Shown: in pieces, positions 1 through 8,179 of the stretch
Layout of the letters: each line of letters begins with the position of its first letter
Position numbering within the stretch: position 1 is the first letter of the stretch
Assembly: GCA_011369465.1 (NCBI GenBank)
Contig: DRQG01000131.1
Location: 1 to 45,743 of the forward strand
DNA from: Caldithrix abyssi
GTDB lineage: Bacteria > Calditrichota > Calditrichia > Calditrichales > Calditrichaceae
Direction: 5' to 3'
Length of the DNA stretch: 45,743 bases
Program-made: the position numbers and the translations under genes
Notes under the pieces: generated by a model
What the model was told of the DNA's origin: nothing
Database searches by the model: none
Seen by the model: only the letters and a program-made list of their open reading frames with translations

Positions 1-200
1 AAAACCCTTTCAGGTTTTCGTTATTATATAAATTCCTTTCTTTATCATAGGGCGTTGCCCTATGCTCTATTATGTTTCCCCTACCGGGGAATGTTATTAA
101 TTCATCGTACAGAAACTCTCTCTGAAAGAGAGATAGAATAAAGCACAGGGCAACGCCCTGTGTTAAAAACCAATCAGTTTTTGATTTCCCTGAAAGGGTA
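1..200. repeat. Mirror-arranged array of six small hairpins
   Basis: Six short perfect stems can be read: 1-6/13-18, 46-53/57-64 (8 bp, loop gtt), 76-81/86-91, 116-121/127-132, 144-151/155-162 (8 bp, loop aac) and 188-191/195-198. They are arranged symmetrically about position ~104: hairpin 2 is close to the reverse complement of hairpin 5, and hairpin 1 of hairpin 6. The block therefore looks like two three-hairpin units placed head to head. No gene lies inside. It may extend left of the window. A related pair of hairpins sits upstream of metH (4273-4318). The family is not identified; REP/TIR-like non-autonomous repeats are one possibility. Confidence 0.7.
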
Positions 201-4056: not shown

Positions 4057-4390
4057 AACAATCGTACCACGATTTTTAAATCGCGATAGCGCATAAAAGA
4101 TATTTCATTAATTTAATATAGATCTTTAAAAATGATTTATACGCACTAAAGCGGTTTAACATATTTTACGGGTCTTCCGGCAGATCTATGGGTGAAATTT
4201 AGAGATCAAACTGTTAATATTGTAAGACAAAACAAGCTTTAATCCGCCGGTACTTACGAGTCATTGTTTTATTTCCCCGAAGGGGAATATGCCCATAGCC
4301 CACCGATTCATCGGTGGGAAAAAGAAAGAGAGCCCAAAATAGAACTGGATTCGTTAAAAGTTTAAAGAATGATCCTGAGGATATTTGGCA
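4057..4390. other. pdxA-metH intergenic region
   Basis: About 330 bases without a gene. The first half is AT-rich; the second half carries the paired hairpins at 4273-4318. I looked for a cobalamin or SAM riboswitch ahead of metH and found no B12 box or other conserved core. A metH binding site (gagg, 4377-4380) ends the region. Confidence 0.5.
4273..4318. repeat. Paired hairpins upstream of metH
   Basis: Two perfect stems lie close together: ttcccc/ggggaa at 4273-4278/4282-4287 with loop gaa, and cccaccga/tcggtggg at 4299-4306/4311-4318 with loop ttca. The first has the same stem as the third hairpin of the array at the start of the window. There is no T tract on either strand, so a plain terminator is unlikely. 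If transcribed with metH, the structures would sit about 75 bases ahead of its start codon. Confidence 0.65.
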
Positions 4391-7300
4391 ATGAAACAAA
4401 AATTTTATCCCAACCATCCCATCCATAAACATTTACGGCAGCGCATCCTCATCATGGACGGGGCGATGGGGACCATGATCCAGCGTTACAATTTGGATGA
4501 AGCGGCTTACAGAGGCGAGCGTTTCAAAAACCATCCCGGTGAGTTAAAAGGCAATAATGATCTGCTCTCGCTCACTCAGCCGCAGATTATAGAAGAAATC
4601 CATCGGGCCTATCTGGAAGCGGGCGCGGATATAATAGAAACCAATACATTTAACGCCAACGGTATTTCTCTGCGCGATTACGGTATGAGCGATCTGGCCT
4701 ATGAACTGAATTTGGCCTCCGCCCGGTTGGCCCGACAGGCCGCGGACGATTTCACGAAGGGCAATCCCGCCAAACCCCGTTTTGTGGCCGGCGCGCTGGG
4801 GCCTACCAACCGCACGCTGTCTCTTTCTTCCAAAGTGAACGATCCCGGCCATCGTGATGTGACCTTTGACGAGGTGGCGGAAGCCTATTATCAGCAGGCG
4901 CGGGGGTTGGTGGAAGGCGGCGTGGATCTGCTGCTGGTGGAAACCATTTTCGATACGCTCAACGCCAAAGCGGCTCTGTTTGCCATCGAAAATTATTTTG
5001 ACGCCTGCGGCAAACGCCTTCCCATAATGCTTTCGGTGACCATCATCGATCAAAGCGGGCGCACTTTGTCCGGGCAAACGCTGGACGCTTTCCGCATTTC
5101 GATGAAATCGTACGATTTGCTCAGTATCGGTTTAAACTGCTCCCTGGGCCCGGAACAGATGCGGCCGTTTTTGCAGGAATTACATGAGACCACGCCGCTG
5201 TATGTAAGTTTATATCCCAACGCCGGGCTGCCCAACGCCTTTGGAGAATACGAGGAATCGCCGCAGCAGATGGGGAAAGTTCTGCGCGATTTCGCCCAAA
5301 AAGGCTGGCTGAATCTGGCGGGCGGCTGCTGCGGTACCACTCCGGAACATATCCGTTTTTTTGCCGAGGCTATGCAAAATGTGCCGCCGCGAGTTTTACC
5401 GAATATTGAACCCCGTTCCGAGTACAGCGGTCTGGAAGGACTGACTGTCCGACCCGATTCCAATTTTATCAATATCGGCGAGCGCTGCAACGTAACCGGT
5501 TCGCGCCGCTTTGCCCGGCTGATCAAGGAAGAAAAATATGATGAAGCCCTGAGCGTGGCTCGCGCGCAGGTGGAAAACGGCGCTCAGATACTGGATATCA
5601 ACATGGATGAGGGATTGATTGACGCGCCCAAAGTGATGACCCGCTTTCTCAATTTGATGATGGCCGAACCGGATATTGCCCGGTTGCCGGTTATGATCGA
5701 TTCTTCCCATTGGGAAACGATTGAGGCCGGCTTAAAATGTTTGCAGGGGAGAAGCATTGTCAACTCGCTGAGCCTTAAAGAAGGGGAAGCACGATTTAAA
5801 GAGCAGGCCCGTACCGCTTTGCAATACGGCGCCGCCGTCTTGGTGATGGCTTTTGACGAGCAGGGACAGGCCGATACCGTGGAACGACGGGTGAGTGTTT
5901 GTCGGCGGGCCTATCAGATCTTAACCGAAGAAGTGGGCTTCCCTCCGGAAGATATTATTTTTGATCCCAATATTTTTGCTGTGGCCACCGGCATGGACGA
6001 GCACAAAAATTATGCGCTGGATTACATCGAAGCGACCCGGCGCATCAAAGCCGCTCTGCCTCTGGTAAAGATAAGCGGCGGGGTGAGTAATCTGTCGTTC
6101 TCTTTCCGGGGCAATGAAACGATCCGCCAGGCAATGCACTCGGCCTTTTTATACCACGCCATCCAGGCCGGTATGGATATGGGCATCGTTAATCCGGGGC
6201 AGATTATCGTTTATGAACAAATCGAACCCGAACTGCTGAACAGAGTGGAAGATGTGTTGTTCAACCGCCGGGATGACGCCACGGAACGCTTAACGGAAAT
6301 GGCGCATTCGGTTAAAAAGCAGCCCGGCGAGGAAAAGCGCAAAGAAGAATGGCGCAGCCTGTCTGTGGAAGAGCGACTGGCCTATGCTCTGGTTAACGGC
6401 ATAGCCGATCATATCGAAGCCGACACAGCCGAAGCGCTGAACAAACTGGAAGATCCGCTGCTGGTTATCGAGGGCCCGCTCATGGCCGGTATGGATCGGG
6501 TGGGGGAACTGTTTGCTTCGGGTAAAATGTTTTTGCCGCAGGTGGTCAAAAGCGCGCGGGTGATGAAAAAAGCCGTGGCCTATCTGACGCCCTATCTGGA
6601 AGAGCGCCGCGCGGCCAACGCTTCGCAAAAAGGAAAAATATTGCTGGCCACCGTAAAGGGCGACGTGCACGATATCGGCAAAAACATCGTAGGCGTGGTG
6701 CTGGGCTGCAATAATTACGATATCATCGATCTCGGCGTAATGGTTCCCGCGGAAAAAATCGTGGAAACCGCGCTGAAGGAACGGGTGGATGTGGTTGGCT
6801 TGAGTGGGTTGATAACGCCCTCGCTGCAGGAAATGGTGCATGTGGCCGAAGCAATGAAGGAAAGAAAGATAACCGTCCCGCTGCTGGTGGGCGGCGCAAC
6901 CACTTCGCGCAAACACACCGCCGTTAAAATAGAGCCCGTGTATGACGGCGACGCAGTGGTGCATGTACACGACGCTTCGCGTGCCGTAACCGTAGTTTCC
7001 AGCCTGCTCAGTACGGAACAGCGCTCCAAATACATCCGGCAGATTAAAGATGAGTACGATAAAATCCGTCGGCGTTTTGCAGAACAGAAGAAAGGAAGCG
7101 CCTTAATTTCCATAGAACAGGCCCGAAGCAACCGCCTGCGTACAGATTGGCAAAAGGCAGATGTTGTCCGGCCTAAAAAATTGGGTGTACACACCTTTTC
7201 CAACTATCCGTTGCAGGAAATCAGCGAAAAAATCGACTGGACGCCTTTTTTTAAGGTTTGGCAGATCAAAGGTCGTTTTCCCGGTTTACTGGAAGACCCG

Positions 7301-8179
7301 AAATCGGGTAAAGAAGCGCTGCGTTTGTACGAAGAGGCGCGGGAGATGCTGCAACACATTATAAAACAGCAGTGGCTGGAAGCCCGGGCCGTGGTCGGTC
7401 TGTACCCGGCCAACAGCGTGGGAGACGATATCGAAATTTACGAAGATGAAAGTCGGGAAAAAGTTGTGGCGGTAATTCATACCCTGCGCCAGCAGCTACC
7501 CAAGCGGGGGATGGTTAAAGGGGAAAGGATACCGAAACAAGTTCAGCACAACGCAGATCACCGTCATTCCGAACTTGTTTCGGAATCCTCACAAAAGAAT
7601 GCCAACTATGCCAACCTGGCCCTGGCGGACTTTATCGCTCCCCGCCAAAGCGGAATATCCGATTACATGGGATTTTTTGTGGTTACGGCTGGGATTGGGC
7701 TGGAAACGCTCCTGCAAAGATTTCGGGAAGACCATGATGAATATAAAAGCATTATGGCCAAAGCACTGGCCGACCGTCTGGCCGAAGCCTTTGCCGAACT
7801 GATGCACGAAAAAATACGCCGTGATATTTGGGGCTATGCACCAAATGAGCATTTAAGTAATGAGGATTTAATCCGAGAAAAATATCGTGGTATTCGTCCC
7901 GCACCCGGTTACCCGGCCTGCCCGGATCACAGTGAAAAGCAAACACTGTTTAACCTGTTGAACGCACCGGAAAACAGCGGCGTATCCCTTACGGAATCTT
8001 TCGCCATGATACCGGCTGCTTCGGTAAGCGGTTTTTATTTTGCCCATCCGATGGCACGCTATTTTGGGGTGGGTAAAATCGGAAGAGATCAGGCGCGAGA
8101 TTATGCCCGTCGTAAGGGCGTATCACTAAAACAGGTGGAAACGTGGCTGGCCAACAATCTTGCATACGAACCGGAATGA
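4391..8179 (+). CDS. metH: Cobalamin-dependent methionine synthase
   Basis: MetH transfers a methyl group from 5-methyltetrahydrofolate to homocysteine through enzyme-bound cobalamin. All modules are present in order. The homocysteine domain (about 1-325) has zinc ligands C250, C313 and C314. Next come the pterin-binding domain (about 350-620), the cap, and the cobalamin domain with DVHDIGKN and lower-ligand H760. The reactivation domain (about 930-1262) carries [12 protein letters not shown], which binds SAM. The protein has 1262 residues, about 35 more than the E. coli enzyme. The excess is one insertion at residues ~1044-1071 in the reactivation domain, encoded by a palindromic repeat (separate entry). 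ATG 4391 has gagg 10 bases upstream. No adjacent metF or B12 riboswitch is seen. Confidence 0.97.
7524..7590 (+). repeat. Palindromic repeat inserted in frame in metH
   Basis: Two arms, 7532-7544 and 7571-7583, are perfect 13-base inverted copies (ccgaaacaagttc / gaacttgtttcgg). They extend outwards to about 19 bases with one mismatch and enclose 26 bases. The translated segment reads KQVQH ... SELVSESS. Aligned by eye to E. coli MetH, which passes from LRQQ to NY.LADF in a few residues, the segment is extra by about 32 residues. The arm text, gtcattccgaacttgtttcgg, is a palindrome type I have seen dispersed in unrelated bacterial genomes, comparable in behaviour to Rickettsia palindromic elements. 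Confidence 0.8.

Follow-up and report, generated by a model that had tools for sequence, protein, structure and literature searches.

The left end of the window (the whole 45,743-nt stretch of Caldithrix abyssi DNA that was analyzed) is probably occupied by a chimeric MITE, in which a body of Y1-type hairpins is set between ISL3-type (DDE) ends, and which was likely moved by an ISL3 transposase. Positions 1–252 would be a left-truncated copy of a miniature element of about 336 bp with two ancestries. Directly recognizable in sequence are the copies of the repeat, the relatedness of the hairpin units, the TIRs and the target duplications of related elements. We infer that the body derived from a Y1 element, and that it was an ISL3 transposase, and not the Y1 protein, that moved the copies now seen; the Y1 protein may possibly use the hairpins, either now or at the time the body originated.

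When hairpins are defined as perfect stems of at least 6 bp with loops of 3–8 nt, positions 1–205 hold six that do not overlap (1–18, 46–64, 76–91, 117–133, 144–162 and 165–182), as the initial annotation had described for the start of the window. Six hairpins were reached by one of 911 stretches of 205 nt (one every 50 nt), this being the array itself, and the runner-up, with four, overlaps it. None of 2000 dinucleotide shuffles of 1–205 had six, the maximum being four. The array is symmetric about a center near position 104, as had been proposed, with arms 41–78 and 130–167 showing 82% complementarity and 4–14 and 189–199 showing 100%. The outer hairpins had been read as mutual reverse complements; the first hairpin is mirrored not by the perfect stem at 165–182 but by CCCT-GAA-AGGG at 187–199, which has a 4-bp stem in the window copy and brings the number of small stems in the array to seven. 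The suggested arrangement of two facing three-hairpin units is upheld by alignment of the reverse-complemented unit U with its inverted partner iU, which gives a half-unit of about 95 nt with the order outer, middle and inner hairpin, the middle one having an 8-bp stem and a 3-nt loop. The element extends past position 200 to a right end near 252, while its left end is estimated, from a complete copy on contig C15, to lie about 85 nt beyond the contig start. No gene is found inside it. Its parts are as follows.

1–252, + strand: truncated copy of the non-autonomous element, about 85 nt of the left end lying beyond the contig start
1–96, + strand: unit U, hairpins H1, H2 and H3
1–18, + strand: H1 (AAAACCCTTTCAGGTTTT), inner type
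46–64, + strand: H2, middle type, 8-bp stem and 3-nt loop (CATAGGGC GTT GCCCTATG)
76–91, + strand: H3 (TTCCCC TACC GGGGAA), outer type
92–115, no strand: spacer between the units, with the center of symmetry
109–206, + strand: unit iU, the inverted partner, hairpins H4, H5 and H6
117–133, + strand: H4 (TCTCTCT GAA AGAGAGA), outer type
144–162, + strand: H5, middle type (CACAGGGC AAC GCCCTGTG), inverted partner of H2
165–182, + strand: extra perfect hairpin (AAAAACCAATCAGTTTTT) that has no mirror counterpart across the center
187–199, + strand: H6, inner type, inverted partner of H1; 4-bp stem here, 7 bp in the copy downstream of tnpA on contig C98
228–252, − strand: right TIR of ISL3 type (GGACC-TATGTCGAATAGAGTGGGTG on the − strand)
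253–260, + strand: presumed 8-bp target duplication TTTTAAAT, deduced from the right end, the left copy lying off the contig

Positions 1–260 of the window are the start of contig C131 in an assembly (G000) of 4.31 Mb in 161 contigs. The expectation that the unit would recur in this genome was confirmed by four U-iU pairs and by fragments. Copies of the window element lie at C107:1–253 (98% identity), C15:10366–10611 (92%) and C72:3–212 (89%), in unrelated surroundings, and fragments of the array occur on C34, C106, C98 and C72. A covariance model of the half-unit, built from 12 sequences and with only the middle and inner stems modeled, detected at least 14 halves, a lower bound, given that scoring covered 150 of the 2354 first-look candidates. 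These comprise the four U-iU pairs (C131, C107, C15 and C72), three halves around the tnpA gene on C98, and isolated halves or fragments on C106, C72 and C34; the unit on C106 is single, and no TIR was seen with it. The bases at the feet of the middle hairpins in this genome are AAAG, AGAG, ATAG and others, and GT[AG]G is not among them.

The array occupies the first bases of its contig, and C107 begins with 145 bases identical to those of C131, both contigs starting at the same base of the element. Such a pattern could point to an artefact of assembly at a contig end, or the array might have arisen by chance, but the complete copy on C15 is internal (336 bp in the middle of a 112-kb contig, locus L016 2282–2617) and refutes an artefact, while the shuffles never reach six hairpins, so that an origin of either kind is scarcely credible. 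The shared start base fits an assembly break at a repeat, and C131 and C107 are presumed to begin inside the element for this reason.

An early reading of the array as a plain REPIN ending at its hairpins was demoted once the longer copy on C15 showed TIRs. The copies are alike past the hairpins up to the sequence CGACATA, and on the left those on C15 and C72 have a stretch past H1 in common as well. The right end TATGTCGAATAGAGTGGGTG is exact in C131 (228–247), C107 and C15. At the two ends of the C15 copy, left GGCTTTATGTCGTTTTGAGTGGGTA and right GGTTTTATGTCGAATAGAGTGGGTG, 20 of 25 positions are alike, and the flanking 8-mers, CTTTTTTT and CATTTTTT, match at seven of eight positions; they lie in a run of T, and there are two mismatches if the right end is shifted by one base in either direction. 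The contigs break off before the left end of the element in C131 and C107 and before its right end in C72, so that in this genome the flanking 8-mers were compared at C15. C72 has a strongly diverged left TIR, and a further TIR-like match on C22 (three mismatches) has no hairpin array beside it.

The same type of end is found on ISL3 elements of related genomes. With up to two mismatches allowed, a search of 40 genomes of the class met this end in five others, as the two-mismatch variant TATGTCGAATAGTGTGGGTA (the reversed-pattern control gave one match, in G029). In L262/L289 this variant end adjoins a fragment of an ISL3 transposase (PF01610, E = 1.1e-25), while L272 is an ISL3 element of 1288 bp with GGCTCTATGTGAAATAGTGTGGGTA at both ends and a perfect 8-bp duplication, AAATAAAA. 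Two gene-less elements, L268 and L263, are also flanked by perfect 8-bp duplications, ATTTTTTA and AGAAACAA. Only two of 30 ISL3 loci examined (L272 and L289) carry the TIR of the window at two mismatches or fewer, and it was absent from the eight ISL3 copies examined of the 16 in G005; the TIR thus marks one subgroup of ISL3. Genes matching PF01610 were found in 10 of the 40 genomes of the class, and the search of G000 gave no candidates. L268, in G004, is a gene-less element of 504 bp that has several short GC hairpins besides its ISL3 ends, and is possibly a third case of TIRs combined with a hairpin array.

The hairpins might act at the RNA level, as terminators, attenuators or transcript ends, and be kept for that reason, with mobility being secondary. 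They are intergenic and have GC stems, and REPs elsewhere have such roles according to Di Nocera et al. (2013, PMC3733652), but the window gave no match to Rfam families, the copies with TIRs lie in varied surroundings, and single copies have lost the integrity of one or more hairpins (H1 and H6 in the window copy, H5 in that of C72). We consider a role in RNA improbable as the main explanation. The initial annotation had the element recognized by its hairpins, which is not supported in that form: the copies end in ISL3-type TIRs, and elements bounded in this way show target duplications of 8 bp, a hallmark of DDE transposases, so that the hairpins are more likely a body derived from a Y1 element than the sites of present movement.

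The annotation had also advised looking for a REP-associated (Y1) transposase gene in the genome, and such a gene was found. The PF01797 profile detected two Y1 genes in the genome, on C98 and C51. The gene on C98 is intact, starts with GTG and encodes 150 aa (PF01797, E = 7.1e-27), with the motifs DHVH, WQ and YIENQKSHH (that is, Y---Q--HH) and with sequence matches to Pfam, NCBIfam and two sequence groups of solved TnpA proteins of the IS608/ISDra2 type. It is flanked on both sides by the three-hairpin unit of the array, in the order iU-tnpA-U with a further iU downstream, and its flanks are inverted copies of each other; the U-iU order of the window is inside-out relative to this. A TIR of the MITE kind was not seen on reading the surroundings of the gene. 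By its motifs the C98 protein appears to be subclass-1.2-like, the signature given for TnpAY1 subclass 1.2 by Quentin et al. (2018, PMC6006769) being Y---Q--HH, DH[VI]H, WQ and a length of about 148 aa.

The second Y1 gene, on C51 (locus L015 1500–3000), encodes 144 aa, also has Y---Q--HH and shares 34% identity with the C98 protein. It was rejected as a partner of the array, as the palindromes around it (CCCACGATTTCAGTCGTGGG type) are unlike those of the window. A short frame upstream of it resembles what we take to be the start of an IS256-type transposase.

The units flanking the C98 gene favor a REPIN-like alternative, in which the Y1 transposase recognizes U-iU and moves it via single-stranded DNA, and the TIRs are incidental, left by an old ISL3 MITE that received the array. 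Genome G022 lends this some weight. Four iU-U pairs were detected there by the covariance model (C258, C192, C80 and C149) and one by eye (C232); the C80 pair contains a C-terminal piece of tnpA, and on C232 the start of a tnpA-like frame remains between the units. The two thus resemble internal-deletion derivatives of the tnpA element, and the pairs are consistent with elements that have lost tnpA. Flanking direct repeats of 7 or more were absent in the four G022 elements examined, an intact-length tnpA element among them, and C299 of the same genome carries a U-iU pair, as in the window, without the ISL3 TIR pattern. However, the nearly identical copies in G000 remain alike as far as the ISL3-type right end, some 50 nt past the last hairpin, and to our knowledge target duplications are not known for HUH Y1 transposases. 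We therefore regard movement by the Y1 protein as unlikely, if less so than a role in RNA. Also in G022, the tnpA gene at L024 (C258), which after the C98 gene is the closest flanked relative from another genome, is interrupted by one in-frame stop, and its hairpin arrays are intact.

Under the preferred reading, a chimeric MITE, the ISL3-type TIRs (GGnnCTATGTCG...) would be acted on in trans by a DDE transposase of the ISL3 family, which would produce the 8-bp target duplication, and the mobilizing transposase would be one that is no longer detected in the own genome. The body would be a head-to-head U-iU pair of the three-hairpin unit that flanks the Y1 gene. It may have come from the junction of two neighboring elements or from an opened circular form, either of which would give U-iU.

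A second TIR family encloses similar hairpin arrays in another genus, in G028 and G038. Its sequence, GGGCGCAGCACAAATTGCAC, differs from that of the window and gave 24 forward and 27 reverse matches in G028, 12 and 11 in G038 and one in G036, while controls gave 0. Among 20 distinct elements of G028 and G038 with both ends, 14 have flanking repeats of 9 bp and three more have repeats of 8 bp, in each case with one mismatch at most; in a control of 380 mismatched 9-bp pairings the minimum was three mismatches. The bodies of 17 of the 20 contain a hairpin with a stem of at least 7 that is TAG-footed (or followed by CTA), and are of two array types. Taken together with the window, these elements are most simply accounted for as DDE-type MITEs with a body made of a Y1-type array.

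Homologues of the C98 Y1 gene are present in 34 of 60 genomes searched, the own genome included. Of 14 tnpA loci inspected, several, such as L024, L025 and L026, have arrays of two or three hairpins on either side of the gene, and others, such as L028 and L029, have poorer arrays or none. A sample from named genomes was made up of the best 80 homologues of at least 584 stretches, 77 of these 80 having 120 nt or more on each side. The best 80 come from Bacteroidota, Verrucomicrobiota, Planctomycetota, Calditrichota, Acidobacteria, Lentisphaerae and others. The motif Y---Q--H[HQ] is kept in 75 of the 77. Perfect hairpins number 2.84 per tnpA gene, compared to 0.45 in shuffles; at least one lies on each side at 54 of the 77 loci, and at the other 23 they are missing from at least one side (stem of at least 6).

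When the upstream flank is compared with the reverse-complemented downstream flank, likeness exceeds that of 20 shuffles in 67 of the 77 relatives. At 34 of the 77 loci the own flank is a better partner than any of the 76 from elsewhere (p = 3.5e-13 in a Wilcoxon comparison with their mean, over all loci). Own inverted pairings lie above the 99th percentile of cross-locus pairings in only 24 of 77, since middle hairpins are similar from one locus to the next. Own pairings in direct orientation are also raised (mean 41, nine above the cross-locus 99th percentile), as the hairpins are palindromes. Middle hairpins were found on both sides at 51 of the 77 loci when one mismatch was allowed and the best candidate taken, a count made without a control, and at 17 when perfect 8-bp stems were required. 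In the tnpA flanks, the foot (three bases) before strict middle hairpins is TAG or CAG in 32 of 57. The Y1 gene of Bacteroides xylanisolvens XB1A has an array on both sides, and its genome contains five copies of the footed middle hairpin, two of them being the flanks of the gene (reversed-pattern controls, zero); a dispersed copy, L302, comprises three hairpins.

A broader and tentative proposal is that Y1 genes of subclass 1.2 may own an inverted three-hairpin repeat with a long, N[TC]AG-footed middle hairpin, which would be widespread, its range taking in Bacteroides, Verrucomicrobiota and Planctomycetota. Within Calditrichota it would have been packaged at least twice in unrelated DDE-type ends, giving MITEs of dual ancestry with a body perhaps still read by the Y1 protein and ends served by DDE transposases.

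Other arrangements were also seen. L104, L105 and L216 (G028) have another type of array, symmetric and with TAG feet, in which the middle stem is 15 bp or interrupted (CCCAGGGTTCCCCGG...). The arrays at L207 and L208 in G023 (C49 82.7–85.9 kb and C11 95.9–97.2 kb) are long and repeat several hairpin types in blocks of some 600 bases, a size well beyond that of the three-hairpin unit.

The window element shares features with several known systems. A REPIN is described in PMC3116915 as two REP units, inverted, that disperse as one. Like REPINs and BIMEs (served by RAYT/TnpAREP), the array is a gene-less, intergenic, inverted hairpin doublet, and its units flank a Y1 gene of the genome; unlike them, its units are about 95 nt long with three hairpins, lack the GT[AG]G foot and lie within ISL3-type TIRs. 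REPIN copy numbers are often over 100, compared with at least 14 half-units here. The C98 protein, with Y---Q--HH, DHVH, WQ and 150 aa, is like TnpAY1 subclass 1.2, for which Table 1 of Quentin et al. (2018, PMC6006769) gives ‘no’ under REPs and the text reports that terminal IS200 structures are generally absent; in contrast, many of the genes examined here are flanked by symmetric hairpin arrays. The automatic REP search of that study, which was supplemented by inspection by hand, required GT[AG]G at the foot. In IS200/IS605 elements, hairpins are asymmetric and subterminal and there are no inverted terminal repeats, whereas the C98 flanks are mutually inverted, as in the 67 of 77 relatives.

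Terminal repeats of GGnnCTATGTCG type, the 8-bp duplications of relatives and the lack of an internal gene are as in ISL3-family MITEs, from which the element differs in its body of Y1-type hairpin units and in a genome where PF01610 is not detected. TIRtrons/TIRYT (PMC3733652) also have Y1-type genes with longer inverted repeats and form head-to-head and tail-to-tail dimers, but here the TIRs bound gene-less elements and none were seen around the C98 gene. Tobes and Pareja (2006, PMC1525189) likewise link DDE insertion sequences with REP-like palindromes; there, the IS lands in the REP, while here the hairpins lie inside the TIRs. In titles and the beginnings of abstracts, a survey that covered neither subscription journals nor preprints, repeats for subclass 1.2 and hairpin-bodied ISL3 MITEs were not found, and a search with the sequence GGGCAACGCCC returned only unrelated matches. 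If the proposal holds, a Y1 subclass set apart as REP-less would have cognate repeats with a foot missed by a GT[AG]G search, and DNA recognition by subclass 1.2 would become directly testable. Dispersal of REP-like bodies by DDE-type ends would also mean that REP copy counts alone need not measure Y1 activity.

Elsewhere in the window, a metH-like ORF (4385–8179) contains a palindromic stretch at 7527–7631, which looks like an intergenic-type repeat inserted in frame in a conserved gene.
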